Shown piece after piece: positions 50,580 through 64,000 of a stretch of DNA of 64,000 bases (positions are counted from its first letter, which is position 1; the number at the start of each line of letters is the position of its first letter). The position numbers and the translations under genes are program-made. This DNA is from Lentimicrobium saccharophilum (GTDB lineage: Bacteria; Bacteroidota; Bacteroidia; Bacteroidales; Lentimicrobiaceae). Under the pieces are notes generated by a model, which worked only from the letters and a program-made list of their open reading frames with translations, did not search any database and was not told the origin of the DNA. Where the stretch lies: the NCBI RefSeq assembly GCF_001192835.1, contig NZ_DF968182.1, positions 1,242,968 through 1,306,967 of the forward strand, given 5' to 3'.

Positions 50580-51515
50580 TTATTGCTGAATCTTGATTTC
50601 GAGCAGCATGGTCCCTTGTTCATGCTCATCGGCCAGAACAATTTTAAGCAGGCCGTATTTACCCTGCTGGGTCTTGAAAGGGATTACCTTGCCTGAATAG
50701 GCATATTTGCAGTTACCGCTCACTTTCGTGGGATTGTAACCTGTGACCAGTAAGCTGTCATTTACCGCAGCGTCAAAAGCCGCCGGAGAAATCAGGTCGT
50801 TATCTGAAGTATTGTAGTCGAAGAGGGTTGAATTCTTCTCAGGCCAGTTATTGATCAACGGATAATATCCTACCACCGAGGTGTATCCGGGACAGGTAAG
50901 CGAAGGCGATGGCAATCCGGAAGTAAAATAGAAGTAAGGAACAATATCAATGGTACTCTCTTTGCCTGCGACGGAAACGTCATCGTAAACCAGACCCAGG
51001 TCGGCATCGAGGTATGAAGGGGAAGTGAAATTCTGCTGCATACCCAGCACTAAATCAGCATAGTGGCGGATCGGCCCGTAACTGGTACCGGCCCCTTTGC
51101 GCACCACGATACTGGCAGTGGCGGTATCACGGTCGGCATTCATCACCAGCACCCGCCAAACCTCTGAAGCGGCCTGACCCTTCGGAAAACTGAAGTCGGC
51201 ATCGAAGCCCTCATTGCCGGCATATATCCCCTTATCAAGCTGAACAGTCGTATCATTGCCCGTAATGCGTTCAATGCGCAGGTACGTGAGCGGAGACCCG
51301 CTTCCGGAAGCAAGTACGCCGATATTGATCTTGCCGCCAGGGGAGACTTCCTCGCCCGGAGCCGTATAGGCACTCCCGGATTTCAGAATGACCGAAGCAC
51401 TGTTGATTTCCTCTTCCTGGCTGCAGGAAGCCAGAAAAAATGAACTTACCGAAAACAAACAAAACTGCAGGGCCAGAATAAAGCCCCGCAGTTTCAACAA
51501 AGATTTTGTATCCAT
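50580..51515 (-). CDS. Lipoprotein of the TonB-receptor operon, paralogue 1
   Basis: 311 residues. Lipoprotein signal ending LASC (Cys about 30). The N-terminal half resembles an Ig-like domain (SVILKSGSAYTAPGEEVSPG, DTTVQLDKGIYAG). The C-terminal half (HYADLVLGMQQNFTSPSYLD; VPYFYF; LISPAAFDAAVNDSLLV; VIPFKTQQGKYGLLKIVLA; TMLLEIKIQQ) matches the corresponding half of the neighbouring lipoprotein, so the two are paralogues. No named family recognised. Directly precedes the receptor gene (12 bp), consistent with surface capture of the same substrate. Confidence 0.78.
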   Translation of the reverse strand: MDTKSLLKLRGFILALQFCLFSVSSFFLASCSQEEEINSASVILKSGSAYTAPGEEVSPGGKINIGVLASGSGSPLTYLRIERITGNDTTVQLDKGIYAGNEGFDADFSFPKGQAASEVWRVLVMNADRDTATASIVVRKGAGTSYGPIRHYADLVLGMQQNFTSPSYLDADLGLVYDDVSVAGKESTIDIVPYFYFTSGLPSPSLTCPGYTSVVGYYPLINNWPEKNSTLFDYNTSDNDLISPAAFDAAVNDSLLVTGYNPTKVSGNCKYAYSGKVIPFKTQQGKYGLLKIVLADEHEQGTMLLEIKIQQ

Positions 51516-52400
51516 TTACTGTTTCTGAATTTTAACGGCTATTTCAAGGGTACCGGTTTCCTCTCCCGAAACTGCAATCACCTTGATCAGACCATACAAA
51601 CCCGACTGGATCTTAATGGCATATACATCACCGGCGGTCAGCACACTGGCTTTTTTACGAGCCTCGTCTGCATTATAAGCATCGATGATAACTGCGTCAT
51701 TCTCAATAGCATCGAACTGGGCAGCGGTGAGTTCGGTTTTAAAGAAGTTGGTCAGGTTTTTGGTGGTATAATTATCGGGTGAAGAAGCGCCTTCGAAAAC
51801 TCCGGTAATGTTCGATCCGGGGGAGCCCAGTGACATCATGTTCTGATGTGACACCGTGTTCTCAAAAAAGCAGAAAATGTCGATTTTCTCCTGATTCTGG
51901 AAAGCGGTAGCCTGGAAATATTTCGTTGCCTGATTTTCGCTGAATGAAAGGAAACTCTCGGCATCAACATTATCCTGTGCACCCATCAGAATGGTGGTGT
52001 AGGCGTTGATCGGCCCGAATTCTCCGGTAATGGTGATGGTTTCTTCTTTTTTGTTGCCGGCGATATCGGTGGCTGTGAATACCCAAACCTCCTGATCGGC
52101 AATACTTTTCGTTGTATAAAAATTAAACACAAAGCTCTGGGTATTGATGGTAGAATCGAGCAATACCTGATCGTTGGCTTTGATTCCGAATTTTACAATA
52201 TTGTCGGTTCCGTTGCCCTGAAGGATAATCCCGAACCTGAGGGTGTCTCCGTATGAAGCAGTAACATCACCGGTAACAAAACCCGCTTGCTGGTTGAAAG
52301 CAATTGCCGGGGGAACCGGCTCGTCTTCCTCTTTGGTACAACTGCTGAACATCAGTCCTGACAACAGGGCAAATCCGCATACAATAAGTAGTCTTTTCAT
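51516..52400 (-). CDS. Lipoprotein of the TonB-receptor operon, paralogue 2
   Basis: 294 residues from the ATG at 52400 (a start at 52439 would add a non-signal prefix). Lipoprotein signal MKRLLIVCGFALLSGLMFSS followed by C. Ig-like N-terminal half (GDVTASYGDTLRFGIILQGN, NTQSFVFNFYTTKSIADQEV) and a C-terminal half paralogous to the downstream gene (INAYTTILMGAQDNVDAESF; IDIFCFFENTVSHQNMMS; VYAIKIQSGLYGLIKVIAV; GTLEIAVKIQKQ). Its stop codon directly abuts the start codon of the next gene with no spacer, so the operon is translationally coupled. Function unknown. Confidence 0.78.
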   Translation of the reverse strand: MKRLLIVCGFALLSGLMFSSCTKEEDEPVPPAIAFNQQAGFVTGDVTASYGDTLRFGIILQGNGTDNIVKFGIKANDQVLLDSTINTQSFVFNFYTTKSIADQEVWVFTATDIAGNKKEETITITGEFGPINAYTTILMGAQDNVDAESFLSFSENQATKYFQATAFQNQEKIDIFCFFENTVSHQNMMSLGSPGSNITGVFEGASSPDNYTTKNLTNFFKTELTAAQFDAIENDAVIIDAYNADEARKKASVLTAGDVYAIKIQSGLYGLIKVIAVSGEETGTLEIAVKIQKQ

Positions 52401-52559
52401 GGATGGTGGTTGGTTTAATCGTTGTGAATAAAATTTCATATCGCAGGCAAAAATAGCAGGTGTTTTCCGATTATCAAACCTGTTCGTGAATTTAGAAGGA
52501 TTCTAAAGACCGGAAATATATGCCATCAATGAAATACAAGAAGAATCAGAATTATTATC

Positions 52560-54859: not shown

Positions 54860-55071
54860 GCATTCACTTCCGGACTGGCAAATCCGGTTTCCCTTTTACG
54901 GCATTCCATCAGTGCAGCCGGTTCGGTAATGGACCGGATGCTGTTGCTTTTTAATTGAGTATCTGAGAAAATCATTACAGGTATTTGTTTGACCCCTAAT
55001 CCATTCTGAAAAATGATCAGACCCGCAATCGATTGCATAAATATTTGTGTATCAGTCGCTTGAATTATGAG

Positions 55072-55111: not shown

Positions 55112-58100
55112 ATGAAAAACGATAATCACACCACTGCTTTTGCCGAATCCGGCCGCTCATTGACAGCCCGGGACCTGATCCGGTACATCAACCTGAAGCT
55201 GGCGACCATGGGTCAGCCGGTATTCGACGACCAGCAGGCCACCGGCATAGAAACTCCCCTGGCAGATCCTGACTTTCTGGATCTCACATCAAATCTTGTA
55301 AATATTTACCGAAGCCGTACGCGACTGATTGCCGATGTTTATTCTCCGGTTGACAGGCGCATTCAGGCTTTTATCAACAGCTATCTCGAAGATCTCAGGC
55401 TGCCTGAAGTCCCCAGGCTGCCAGCCAACACCCTGGTAAGTGACAAACCCGGGGTTGCGCGGATGCTGAGTCTTCCTCCCCACGAAAACCATTACAGCAG
55501 CGAGCTGCTTGACTCATACCGCATCCGGCAGGGGGTGTTGCACAATCCGCGGAACGACCGCCGGACCACCCAGGGCTCCTTTCATATCGTGGAAGGCGGG
55601 CTTCCGGTTCCGCCCGACAAGATTGAAGTTCCAAAAATCACCTGGGCAAAATTCCTGGAATCTGCCTTTAATCCACCTGCCGCGCTCAACCGCCTTCCTT
55701 TCACATCTGCCCAGGAAAAGCAGGCGGAAGTATTCGTCTCCCTGCTCCTCCGTCCGGTGGTTTGCCCCGAAGTGAAAGGGGTGCTGAAACGCAAAACCAT
55801 GGAAGTCCGTTTTTTTGCACCTGGCAGCCTGGTTGCCAACATCGACTTTGTGGAATCCATCTTCGGGAATGCCGGCAACCCGTCGAATCCGGCCTGTGAT
55901 GCGGCCTTGGATCCGGAAAGCTGGACCGGCCATACAGGATGCATCGTGCTGGCCCCGCAATTGACGACATTGACGAAGAAAGCACTGGGTCTTCCCCATT
56001 ACGACGAGGCCACTGAACGTCAGCGCCGCGACGGAGTATGCTGGAAAGATGAAAACGAACTCTACAACGGCGGACAGGCCTTTAAGATTACCTGCCGTGA
56101 CGAACGCGGGGTGGTAATCACCCTGATCGCGGATAATTATTTCGGTTATTCCAAAAAAGAGATCAAGACTCAGATCAGCTATAGTGCCAACCTGTTTGGC
56201 CTGGTTGAAGAAGAGCATTCCGGAGGGGCCATCGCCTTCAGGAGAAAAAATATTGGCTCGAACTTCAACGGAGCGTTATTTATGAAAAACCGGCTGAAAA
56301 AGTCTTTCTATTTTTCTGAAGTGGTTGAAAAGTTCGGTCCACTGATGCACCTGAAACCTGAGGGTTATGGTGTAGACAAAAAATTCGGAAATATCATATA
56401 CATTCCCGAGGATACGGAAATAGACCTCTACAAAGGCACAGTCCGGTGGAATTACAAAGGCAGCAGTCAAACCATCCCGCTGAGACCCGGGCATTACTAT
56501 ATTTATCCGTCAGGCCACAAGCTGCATATGGAAAAACATCCTTCAGCGCCCTCGTGGCGGCTGGTGAGCACCCATGCCCGTGGCACATTCTGTCACAAGC
56601 CCAGCACAGTTTCGGGAGGCGGAAAGTCAGAGATCTCCAAATCCCTGCTTAACGCCATTATTTACGGGTCTTTCTTTGTGGATAATTTTGATCGGGATAT
56701 GAAAGCGGCCGATGAAATCATCCGCCGGGACTTTTCGGGAAGGTGGAAGAATCCTGAAGAGCACAGTGCGATTTCACGCCCCCTTCTTTCACCTGACCGT
56801 ACGCTTGGTTCGGTGATCAAACTGCTGAATCCTTCATCCCAGTATACTGATGAGTACAATGATTTCGTCAGGTCGATACCGGCGCATGTCAAAGCGCTGG
56901 TTTTCTATGTAAAGCGCTTTTACCGGCCGGAGCGCACCAGTGACGACTGGAAGGAATTCTTCTCCACCGACGTTATCAACGGACGCAAAGGCCATGAACT
57001 GCTTTTCAGCAACCGCAAGTTGAGCGCAAGCTACCTCAGGGTGGGTTTTGCAGCCGACAATTCATGGTACCTTCATAAATTACGTTCCGACTTCATTGCC
57101 GCAGCCAAAATTCAGATGGAAGATGACATTACCGCTTCAGTCACCCTGCCGGTAAAGCATCTTAAATACCTTAACCCCGACTACACAAATCCCAGCGTTA
57201 AGATCACGGAAAACTGCGAAAGCAAGTTCTTCCAGCGACCCGATGAAGCCATTCACAGAGGTTACGACAAAGAAACCGAGGCAGACCTGTCACAGCGCAA
57301 CAACTTCTGCAGCAATTACCAGCCATTGACTTCTGAAGACGGCAAACGTCTGATTGAAGATGCCATCAACTTTGACCGTTATACCCGTCCCATTCAGAAA
57401 CTGATTATAGAAGGCAGTAATGACAGTACGGGGAACTATTTTATCACGCCTTCGCATCCAAGAATTGTTAATGGTGCACCTTCCAAAAATCCCCGATACC
57501 TTCAGATCAGGCCCGACCTGGTAAATCCCATAGATGATCATCTGGCAGAGGTCGGCATGCGGTTTTCGATGCGCATTCCCCTTTCCGAGCAGATTTACAA
57601 TCCCATCCATGCCGTATTGCCGGGCCGGCGCAACAATCCGCCTGATCCTGCAGGCAATATCCGAGGGCTGAGTGTTTACGGCCCCATCCACTACCAGGAA
57701 CTGCCGGAGTTGTTTATGGACTATATCTGCAGCCTGACCGGTAAATCACCGTCAACAACCGGTGCCGGTTCGGAGGGCGCGCTCACCAAAGGGCCTTTCA
57801 ACATGCTGAGCCCTGTAACTGACCTGAACAATGCCCTGCTGAGCTACATCCTGACCGGATATAACGCTTTTTCGTCGGCTGCCGGGTTTATCGGTACCAA
57901 ATCAAGGTTCGACCATGATATCTCCCTGCTGATTCCTGAATTATGGAGCCGCATGGAAGTTAAAGACCGGGATCCTGAAAAACTCATTGAAGAAGGATCA
58001 CTCGAAAAACTGGAAGATTTTGATTACAAGGGCAAAAAAGTGCTTGCTTCACGCTTGGGTTACAGAATTACGGAAAATTTCACTTTCAGCTACCTGAAAA

Positions 58101-58633
58101 GCATTTTTGATGAACCTCAGGCTGTGTTCAATGAATTGATGCTTCGGCCTGAAAAACAGGACATGGACGCCTTCGTTGACGGAATCAACAATATTGTGGA
58201 AGCTCAGCAAAGGGTGGCCCGGGAATATTTTGAGGATGGGAGCGTTGAAGCTGCCATTCCCCCGCTGAAAGCCCTGCTCCATATCATGGCATGGGGAAGT
58301 TACGAAGGCAAAACAGCTGAACATCCGGATGTAAGAGGACTTTTTGACAGGGAATACGTGCTGAATTCAATCTGGTATCATGAAAGACTCCAGCGCAAAC
58401 AGCAGATCGATATCAACTTTCTGGACAAGAGCCTGACCTACCTCAGGCATTTTACTGCACAGGGGATCAATGCCGAGTATATTGAAGCCCTGGACCTTAA
58501 TGAAAGAATCAGCAATATTGAAAAGGAGCTGGAATTTATCAGTTCAGACGCCTATATTGAATTCCTCACAGGAACCATCGGTGCAGACCCGCTTTTCAGA
58601 AAACAGGAGCAACCGGACAACGTGAATGCATGA
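55112..58633 (+). CDS. Large cytosolic protein, candidate PPi-type phosphoenolpyruvate carboxykinase
   Basis: 1173 residues from the ATG at 55112, with no signal peptide and no membrane helix. At residues 502-506 it has the P-loop-like motif GGGKS inside TVSGGGKSEISKS, followed about 20 residues later by the acidic segment FFVDNFDRDM, which could be the second kinase motif. Before it, THARGTFCHKPS and FKITCRDERGVVITLIADNY are long hydrophilic runs. The size (about 130 kDa), the central P-loop and the soluble single-chain design fit the PPi-dependent PEPCK family known from Entamoeba and Propionibacterium, which is far longer than the ATP or GTP enzymes. I assign it from memory of that family, without a search. 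The reaction would be oxaloacetate + PPi = PEP + CO2 + Pi. Alternatively a conserved protein of unknown function. Confidence 0.55.
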   Translation: MKNDNHTTAFAESGRSLTARDLIRYINLKLATMGQPVFDDQQATGIETPLADPDFLDLTSNLVNIYRSRTRLIADVYSPVDRRIQAFINSYLEDLRLPEVPRLPANTLVSDKPGVARMLSLPPHENHYSSELLDSYRIRQGVLHNPRNDRRTTQGSFHIVEGGLPVPPDKIEVPKITWAKFLESAFNPPAALNRLPFTSAQEKQAEVFVSLLLRPVVCPEVKGVLKRKTMEVRFFAPGSLVANIDFVESIFGNAGNPSNPACDAALDPESWTGHTGCIVLAPQLTTLTKKALGLPHYDEATERQRRDGVCWKDENELYNGGQAFKITCRDERGVVITLIADNYFGYSKKEIKTQISYSANLFGLVEEEHSGGAIAFRRKNIGSNFNGALFMKNRLKKSFYFSEVVEKFGPLMHLKPEGYGVDKKFGNIIYIPEDTEIDLYKGTVRWNYKGSSQTIPLRPGHYYIYPSGHKLHMEKHPSAPSWRLVSTHARGTFCHKPSTVSGGGKSEISKSLLNAIIYGSFFVDNFDRDMKAADEIIRRDFSGRWKNPEEHSAISRPLLSPDRTLGSVIKLLNPSSQYTDEYNDFVRSIPAHVKALVFYVKRFYRPERTSDDWKEFFSTDVINGRKGHELLFSNRKLSASYLRVGFAADNSWYLHKLRSDFIAAAKIQMEDDITASVTLPVKHLKYLNPDYTNPSVKITENCESKFFQRPDEAIHRGYDKETEADLSQRNNFCSNYQPLTSEDGKRLIEDAINFDRYTRPIQKLIIEGSNDSTGNYFITPSHPRIVNGAPSKNPRYLQIRPDLVNPIDDHLAEVGMRFSMRIPLSEQIYNPIHAVLPGRRNNPPDPAGNIRGLSVYGPIHYQELPELFMDYICSLTGKSPSTTGAGSEGALTKGPFNMLSPVTDLNNALLSYILTGYNAFSSAAGFIGTKSRFDHDISLLIPELWSRMEVKDRDPEKLIEEGSLEKLEDFDYKGKKVLASRLGYRITENFTFSYLKSIFDEPQAVFNELMLRPEKQDMDAFVDGINNIVEAQQRVAREYFEDGSVEAAIPPLKALLHIMAWGSYEGKTAEHPDVRGLFDREYVLNSIWYHERLQRKQQIDINFLDKSLTYLRHFTAQGINAEYIEALDLNERISNIEKELEFISSDAYIEFLTGTIGADPLFRKQEQPDNVNA

Positions 58634-62382: not shown

Positions 62383-64000
62383 ATGGAAAAGCCCAGCAAT
62401 ACCCTCAAAAAGATTTACCATCCCTCGAAGGAAGTAAAAAAAAGAGCAAATGTAAAGGACTATGAACCCCTGTATCAGGAATCGATCAGCAACCGGGAAG
62501 ATTTCTGGGCAAAAGAGGCCAAACGGCTGGAATGGTTCAGGAAGTGGGACAAAGTCCTTGATGCATCCAATCACCCTTTTTATGAGTGGTTTCAGGGTGG
62601 GCGCATCAACATCGTACACAACGCGCTCGACCGGCACCAGAAAAACGCCACCCGCAATAAATTGGCCATAATCTGGGAGGGGGAGCCGGGCGATCTGCGC
62701 ACTTTCTCCTATCACGCGCTCCACCGGGAAGTTTCGCGGTTTGCCAATGTCCTTAAATCTATGGGAGCCAGGCCGGGTGAAGTGATTACCATTTACATGC
62801 CGCAAATTCCTGAAACAGTTATAGCCATGCTGGCCTGTGCCAAAATCGGCGCCATTCACAGCGTGGTTTACGGAGGATTCAGCGTGGAAGCGCTGGCTGA
62901 GCGTATCGAAGACGCCAACAGCCGCATACTGGTTACTGCCGACGGAGGATTCAGACGCGGAAAAGCTGTCGGGCTGAAGAGCATCGCCAATGAAGCGATG
63001 AAACGATCACCGACCATCGAAGTCTGCATTACCGTGAAACGTACCGGTGAAGAATGCTATATGGAGAATGACCGTGATTTCTGGTATCACGACCTGATGT
63101 CGATGCCGCTGGCTTGTTCCGATTGCGCTACGGTGGAAACCGATGCTGAAGACCCGTTGTTTATACTCTATACTTCCGGCACTACCGGGAAACCCAAAGG
63201 CCTGGTCCACACCCACGGGGGATACGCGGTATATACCGCATCCACATTCAGGTATGTTTTCGACATAAAACCGGAGGATCGCTTCTGGTGTGCTGCCGAT
63301 CCCGGCTGGGTGACCGGACACAGCTACATGGTTTACGGCCCGCTTATCAACGGGGCCACCATGATGATGTACGAAGGCGCCCCTAACCACCCTTACCCTA
63401 ACCGTTGGTGGCAGATGATTGAAAAATACGGCATCAACATATTATACACCTCACCTACCGCCATTCGCGGCCTTATGCGTTTTGGTCCATCGTGGGCCGA
63501 CCGGCACAACCTGAGTTCTCTGCGGCTGCTTGGATCCGTAGGTGAACCCATCAACCCCGAAGCCTGGAAATGGTATTACGAGGTAATCGGCAAAGGCCGG
63601 TGCCCCATTATGGACACCTGGTGGCAGACGGAAACCGGTGGTCATATGATCACCCCGCTTCCCGTGATACCGCTGAAACCGGGATCTGCCACCAAACCCT
63701 TCTTCGGCAACGAAATGGCCATAGTGGACGACAGGGGCAATGAAGTAAAAACCGGGGAAGAAGGCAACCTAGTCATCAAAAACCCATGGCCGGGAATGGC
63801 CCGGACCATTCTGGGCGATCCGGATCGTTTTGTGGAAAAATACTGGGAAAAATATAGTGAACAGAAATGGTATCTGGCAGGCGATTCGGCAAGAAAGGAT
63901 GAAGACGGATATTACTGGATTATCGGAAGGATTGACGATGTAATCAAGGTAAGCGGCTACCGTTTGGGATCCGCCGAAATTGAAAGCGCCCTGGTAAGCC
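62383..64000 (+). CDS. acs: Acetyl-CoA synthetase (partial, C-terminus beyond window)
   Basis: 539 codons from the ATG at 62383; the frame is open at the window end, so about 100 residues are missing. Family motifs: YGGFSVEALAERIEDANSRI, the P-loop-like AMP-binding core LYTSGTTGKPKGLVHTHGG, WCAADPGWVTGHSYMVYGPL, TSPTAIRGLMRFG, DTWWQTETGGHMITPLPV, and GDSARKDEDGYYWIIGRIDD. Makes acetyl-CoA from acetate, CoA and ATP. The catalytic Lys lies beyond the window. The N-terminal basic linker (LKKIYHPSKEVKKRAN) is usual for this enzyme. Confidence 0.95.
   Translation, partial: MEKPSNTLKKIYHPSKEVKKRANVKDYEPLYQESISNREDFWAKEAKRLEWFRKWDKVLDASNHPFYEWFQGGRINIVHNALDRHQKNATRNKLAIIWEGEPGDLRTFSYHALHREVSRFANVLKSMGARPGEVITIYMPQIPETVIAMLACAKIGAIHSVVYGGFSVEALAERIEDANSRILVTADGGFRRGKAVGLKSIANEAMKRSPTIEVCITVKRTGEECYMENDRDFWYHDLMSMPLACSDCATVETDAEDPLFILYTSGTTGKPKGLVHTHGGYAVYTASTFRYVFDIKPEDRFWCAADPGWVTGHSYMVYGPLINGATMMMYEGAPNHPYPNRWWQMIEKYGINILYTSPTAIRGLMRFGPSWADRHNLSSLRLLGSVGEPINPEAWKWYYEVIGKGRCPIMDTWWQTETGGHMITPLPVIPLKPGSATKPFFGNEMAIVDDRGNEVKTGEEGNLVIKNPWPGMARTILGDPDRFVEKYWEKYSEQKWYLAGDSARKDEDGYYWIIGRIDDVIKVSGYRLGSAEIESALVS

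Follow-up and report, generated by a model that had tools for sequence, protein, structure and literature searches.

The window, a stretch of 64,000 nucleotides from Lentimicrobium saccharophilum, contains a long open reading frame (ORF) that raises two questions: whether it encodes a phosphoenolpyruvate carboxykinase (PEPCK) of the pyrophosphate (PPi)-dependent type, and what such an enzyme would do in this organism. The ORF has no internal stop codon and two possible ATG starts, at 55067 and 55112 (Table 1). Two different close relatives, L002 and L024, share the 1173-residue form, which begins with MKND or MKNN, and the 15 codons between the two starts have no aligned residue in L002, L024, L049, L003 or L004; thus the comparison favors ATG 55112 as the likelier start. 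The dN/dS of the gene against L002, L024 and L049 is approximately 0.07, with synonymous sites near or at saturation in the more distant pairs, which indicates an ORF under purifying selection rather than one that arose by chance. The sequence-only reading had claimed an ORF of this extent with a P-loop-like motif around K505, and both claims are confirmed, the lysine being invariant among relatives.

A phmmer search against PDB chains matched only two distinct sequences at E ≤ 10, both of them solved PPi-PEPCKs: 6K31 (AiPEPCK; 1146 bits, 49.4% identity, 551/1116, E = 0) and 8E1U (Propionibacterium freudenreichii; 1125 bits, 48.3% identity, 539/1116, E = 0). The homology is colinear, at 48-49% identity with the same fold and motifs, and the aligned spans (residues 28-1161 and 21-1162) cover nearly the full length of the protein, which like the solved chains (1131 and 1153 residues) is a large single chain. 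The two solved enzymes are identical to each other at 693 of 1112 positions (62.3%); we take the Ai of AiPEPCK to be Actinomyces israelii, and both presumably come from another phylum than the window genome. A Pfam search of the protein returned no family at E ≤ 10, ATP-PEPCK (PF01293) and GTP-PEPCK (PF00821) included, and the only match in NCBIfam, at 15 bits to a flagellar motor family with a cut-off of 300, is taken as noise.

Residue conservation was assessed in an alignment of 82 environmental rows, comprising the window and 81 loci that remained of 93 loci with the gene after removal of three shorter than 1100 residues (L025, L065, L072) and nine exact duplicates; one row, L082, is the window's own gene from the upstream ATG. 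Reading frames were chosen by the peptide GGGKSEI, which all loci expected to have the gene contain. Both solved enzymes share 198 of the 224 invariant columns, K505, E670, D671, D672 and K878 among them. The invariance of KIQMEDDI among the scanned loci is partly due to selection, because it was itself one of the six exact peptide patterns used in the scan for relatives; in three loci found without the patterns (L099, L101, L102), K666, Q668 and E670-I673 are also kept. KIQMEDDI is a candidate metal-binding motif, and the active site would contain SGGGKS, which resembles a P-loop, and probably EDD as well; we infer this choice of catalytic residues, and the use of Pi and PPi by the window enzyme, from the homology. 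At the remaining 26 columns one or both solved enzymes depart from the invariant residue, and we know of no assayed enzyme from the Bacteroidota branch, so that a divergent member could be imagined that retains the fold with a changed phosphoryl donor or a regulatory role. Such a departure is quite improbable given the purifying selection, the retention of the named motif residues, and a single copy per genome in all matches except G003, which has two fragments.

The AlphaFold2 model (mean pLDDT 85.3, pTM 0.84, input alignment of 40 sequences) has pLDDT below 50 in loops 499-504, 712-717 and 878-896, in which conserved motif residues lie. Among the best 50 of 65 Foldseek rows, 8E1U (eight chains) and 6K31 (two chains) fill the first ten places (TM-query 0.87-0.91, with a TM of 0.91 between 8E1U and the model); rows 11-18 comprise seven chains of ATP-PEPCK plus a GTP-PEPCK (E ≤ 0.001), the ATP-PEPCK matches having E from 8.6e-06 and TM-target 0.57-0.64; rows 19-21 are further PEPCKs (E 0.004-0.006), and from row 22 onward E is at least 1.8. 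This ranking agrees with the similarity of structure across the three kinds of PEPCK described in PMC10441589, which, citing Chiba 2019, also gives PPi-PEPCK as a homodimer. ATP-PEPCK and GTP-PEPCK thus share a related fold with the window protein (TM-target 0.46-0.64 in rows 11-21) and a similar P-loop, but the window protein is about twice as long, has no significant sequence similarity to them and would differ in its phosphoryl donor. A misreading of what is really a conventional ATP- or GTP-PEPCK, which the P-loop resembling that of ATP-PEPCK might suggest, is hardly credible: ATP-PEPCK is a separate gene in the same genome, GTP-PEPCK was found in none of 24 genomes, the window's genome among them, and a profile comparison (hhalign) with the genome's own ATP-PEPCK aligned the P-loops alone (499-517 with 252-270) at a non-significant probability of 1.7%. 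The empty Pfam result, the restriction of PDB matches to PPi-PEPCKs and the PPi-PEPCKs at the top of the Foldseek ranking contradict that identity as well.

Taken together, the sequence, the modeled fold and the conserved residues make it very probable that the window gene encodes a PPi-dependent PEP carboxykinase (EC 4.1.1.38), an enzyme also named PEP carboxytransphosphorylase. The sequence-only reading had proposed this assignment, with profile and structure comparisons as its checks; it is supported by the near-full-length phmmer matches to both solved enzymes, by the 198 of 224 shared columns, and by a model of PEPCK fold whose best structural matches are PPi-PEPCKs, followed by ATP- and GTP-PEPCKs. 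Neither of the outcomes named in that reading as refuting it, a lack of profile similarity to PPi-PEPCK or a fold unrelated to PEPCK, was observed.

Table 1. Location of the putative PPi-PEPCK gene, its motifs and related genes (window positions unless a contig is given)
Feature	Position	Strand	Remarks
Putative PPi-type PEP carboxykinase gene	55112..58633	+	1173 aa plus stop; intact ORF, homology, predicted fold
P-loop-like motif TVSGGGKSEISKS	56606..56644	+	Residues 499-511 (K505); no variation across the 82 rows and the two solved PPi-PEPCKs
Motif KIQMEDDI	57107..57130	+	Residues 666-673; K666, Q668, E670-I673 without variation across the 82 rows and the two solved enzymes
Motif TGKSPSTTGAGSEGALTK	57737..57790	+	Residues 876-893; T876-G884, G886, E888-K893 without variation across the 82 rows and the two solved enzymes
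Acetyl-CoA synthetase (acs)	62383..63999	+	ACAS_N and AMP-binding; runs off the window; 3.75 kb downstream of the PPi-PEPCK gene
ATP-PEPCK	G000:C1:954273-955673 (window's genome)		Separate gene
PPDK	G000:C1:951223-953925 (window's genome)		ATP-PEPCK directly after

The sequence-only reading noted that Bacteroidota normally use the ATP enzyme. ATP-PEPCK is present in 270 and PPi-PEPCK in 10 of 395 genomes of the phylum, and the window's genome carries both. The search for an ATP-PEPCK elsewhere in this genome, also suggested by that reading, found a separate gene; thus the PPi enzyme here is an addition and not a replacement, and compared with the solved PPi-PEPCKs it is accompanied by an ATP-PEPCK in its genome. 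PPDK and ATP-PEPCK stand in tandem (L096:2703-7327), and PPDK, whole or in part, lies on the contig of ATP-PEPCK in all 19 genomes of the genus. The genome is also predicted to encode a membrane pyrophosphatase, PEP carboxylase (PEPC), pyruvate kinase (PK) and two PF00365 phosphofructokinases (PFKs). One PFK has the motifs GGDDT and PKTIDND, a pair that we take to mark PPi-dependent PFK, and the other has GGDGS and PKTIDND, a pair that we regard as ambiguous. The former, of 411 residues (L095, G000:C1:395500-399500), is likely a PPi-PFK by this motif pair.

The predicted reaction is PEP + CO2 + Pi <-> oxaloacetate + PPi. We consider it probable, with some reserve, that the enzyme mainly carboxylates PEP, the resulting oxaloacetate serving anaplerosis or a succinate/propionate branch, with ATP-PEPCK operating alongside. 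The phosphoryl group kept as PPi would pass to a PPi-type phosphofructokinase or to the membrane pyrophosphatase. Comparable proposals are made in PMC7650540, in which PPi from propionibacterial PPi-PEPCK could supply a PPi-driven proton pump, and in PMC8863071, in which PPi-PEPCK is suggested as a PPi source in Entamoeba histolytica and P. shermanii. Against the carboxylating role, PEPC and ATP-PEPCK could cover anaplerosis, and the direction of flux cannot be read from the sequence. Being reversible, the reaction could turn towards PEP when PPi is plentiful. It is rather unlikely that the enzyme works mainly in this gluconeogenic direction, with biosynthetic PPi, including that from acetyl-CoA synthetase, driving oxaloacetate to PEP. 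Extracts of Methylotuvimicrobium alcaliphilum did form PEP from malate once NAD+ was added, which the authors credit to malate dehydrogenase plus PPi-PEPCK, but extracts fed oxaloacetate lacked the expected products, probably because of inhibition (PMC6860931). ATP-PEPCK, beside PPDK, is moreover already available in the window's genome for conversion of oxaloacetate to PEP.

The nearby acs gene could also be read in favor of gluconeogenesis. The earlier reading placed it 3.7 kb downstream, and its position is correct, but the proximity does not hold up as coupling: an acs homologue is near the PPi-PEPCK gene in only six loci, from four genomes of the same genus, and L004 and L006, which are long loci of this genus, lack it. 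The absence of acs from many of the other loci is weak evidence, given their short length. Occurring in some same-genus loci only, the proximity gives no support for coupling, and we discarded coupling as a conserved trait. Apart from acs, the neighborhood of the gene includes a Na+/H+ exchanger, a cytochrome c-like protein, a GNAT acetyltransferase and TonB receptors; homologues of the first three, like those of acs, were found near PPi-PEPCK in same-genus loci only, and the TonB receptors have distant matches in other loci beyond the genus. No partner widely conserved across families was found among 800 neighbor ORFs, with groups assigned by record title. An ORF family of no assigned function is near PPi-PEPCK in six loci of Marinilabiliaceae, Prolixibacteraceae and an unclassified MAG; in the four nearest (L056:5-598, of 197 residues, and its kin in L032, L035 and L059) it lies 147-502 bases upstream on the same strand. 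A second ORF family is just downstream of the gene in four Prolixibacteraceae and the same unclassified MAG. Within the window, two adjacent lipoprotein-like ORFs (50580-52439; 311 and 307 residues), with no Pfam match at E ≤ 0.001, lie beside a TonB receptor. A promoter scan found 6 sites versus 6.2 expected, and terminator-like sites numbered 13 versus 6.3 expected.

The 395 genomes were an even sample of the phylum. Seven of the ten PPi-PEPCK carriers in it belong to one family, f59, which includes records titled Ignavibacteriae and Melioribacteraceae, and three, including the window's genome, lie outside it; thus few genomes of the phylum carry PPi-PEPCK, and those that do cluster in certain families. 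All ten except G444 also have ATP-PEPCK. The gene is present in 14 of 60 relatives and in 10 of 19 genomes of the genus, and its absence from the other nine, some genomes being incomplete, indicates that the genus can do without it. Scanning genome contigs gave 261 relatives, and 70 of the best 80 are Bacteroidota by record title, a share biased by a list that holds the nearest relatives. In a quick maximum-likelihood tree built from 73 rows (SH-aLRT support only, midpoint root, weak base, MAG labels possibly wrong), the window gene falls in a Lentimicrobium-type clade adjoining Marinifilaceae (SH-aLRT 98), and most Flavobacteriaceae cluster with Marinilabiliaceae. Two Rhodoferax sequences (L076, L077) join Mariniflexile within Flavobacteriaceae (98), a nesting that suggests acquisition of their putative PPi-PEPCK by transfer. 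Judged by sequence, PPi-PEPCK recurs in several families of Bacteroidota, usually beside the ATP version. PPi-PEPCK in Bacteroidota is not named in the titles and abstract openings of the matches listed for PPi-PEPCK, Breznakibacter, Lentimicrobium and Bacteroidetes PPi-PFK/PEPCK; the founding papers on the enzyme are Chiba 2015 and 2019.

Some carriers may have the PPi enzyme as their sole PEPCK. ATP-PEPCK was present in 20 of the 24 genomes searched for both other types and was not found in G046, G049, G057 and G444. In Breznakibacter xylanolyticus (L064, taken to be G046), PPi-PEPCK, PPDK, membrane pyrophosphatase, PEPC and PK are present and neither ATP- nor GTP-PEPCK was found. Among 46 carrier genomes, from 50 of the best 80 loci, ATP-PEPCK is present in 39 and was not found in seven. 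These are Labilibacter sediminis (L036), B. xylanolyticus, the two Rhodoferax, and three MAGs labeled Spirochaetales (L028), Saccharicrinis (L035) and Bacteroidales (L040); by record title, four of the seven are Bacteroidota. The search for GTP-PEPCK among these seven covered B. xylanolyticus, and some ATP-PEPCK absences may be due to incomplete assemblies. A coding gene for PPi-PEPCK is reported to have been identified in E. histolytica (PMC10441589), which is without other PEPCK types, ATP- or GTP-PEPCK being present as well in most PPi-PEPCK organisms (PMC8100219); thus a sole PPi-PEPCK has a precedent. As a tentative suggestion, the PPi enzyme may have replaced ATP-PEPCK altogether in some Bacteroidota, with succinate/propionate fermentation or gluconeogenesis proceeding via PPi, and the two PEPCK types may divide labor in the window's genus.

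The PPi-PEPCK family is already known, if little noticed, and the window gene is a further member; the useful additions are that the family recurs across several families of the Bacteroidota and, as a mildly new point, that ATP-PEPCK was not found in some carriers. Because no Pfam or NCBIfam model recognizes the protein, a PPi-linked step between PEP and oxaloacetate may be overlooked when Bacteroidota with this gene are annotated or modeled metabolically, and the isolates in which ATP-PEPCK was not found allow a direct enzymatic and genetic test.
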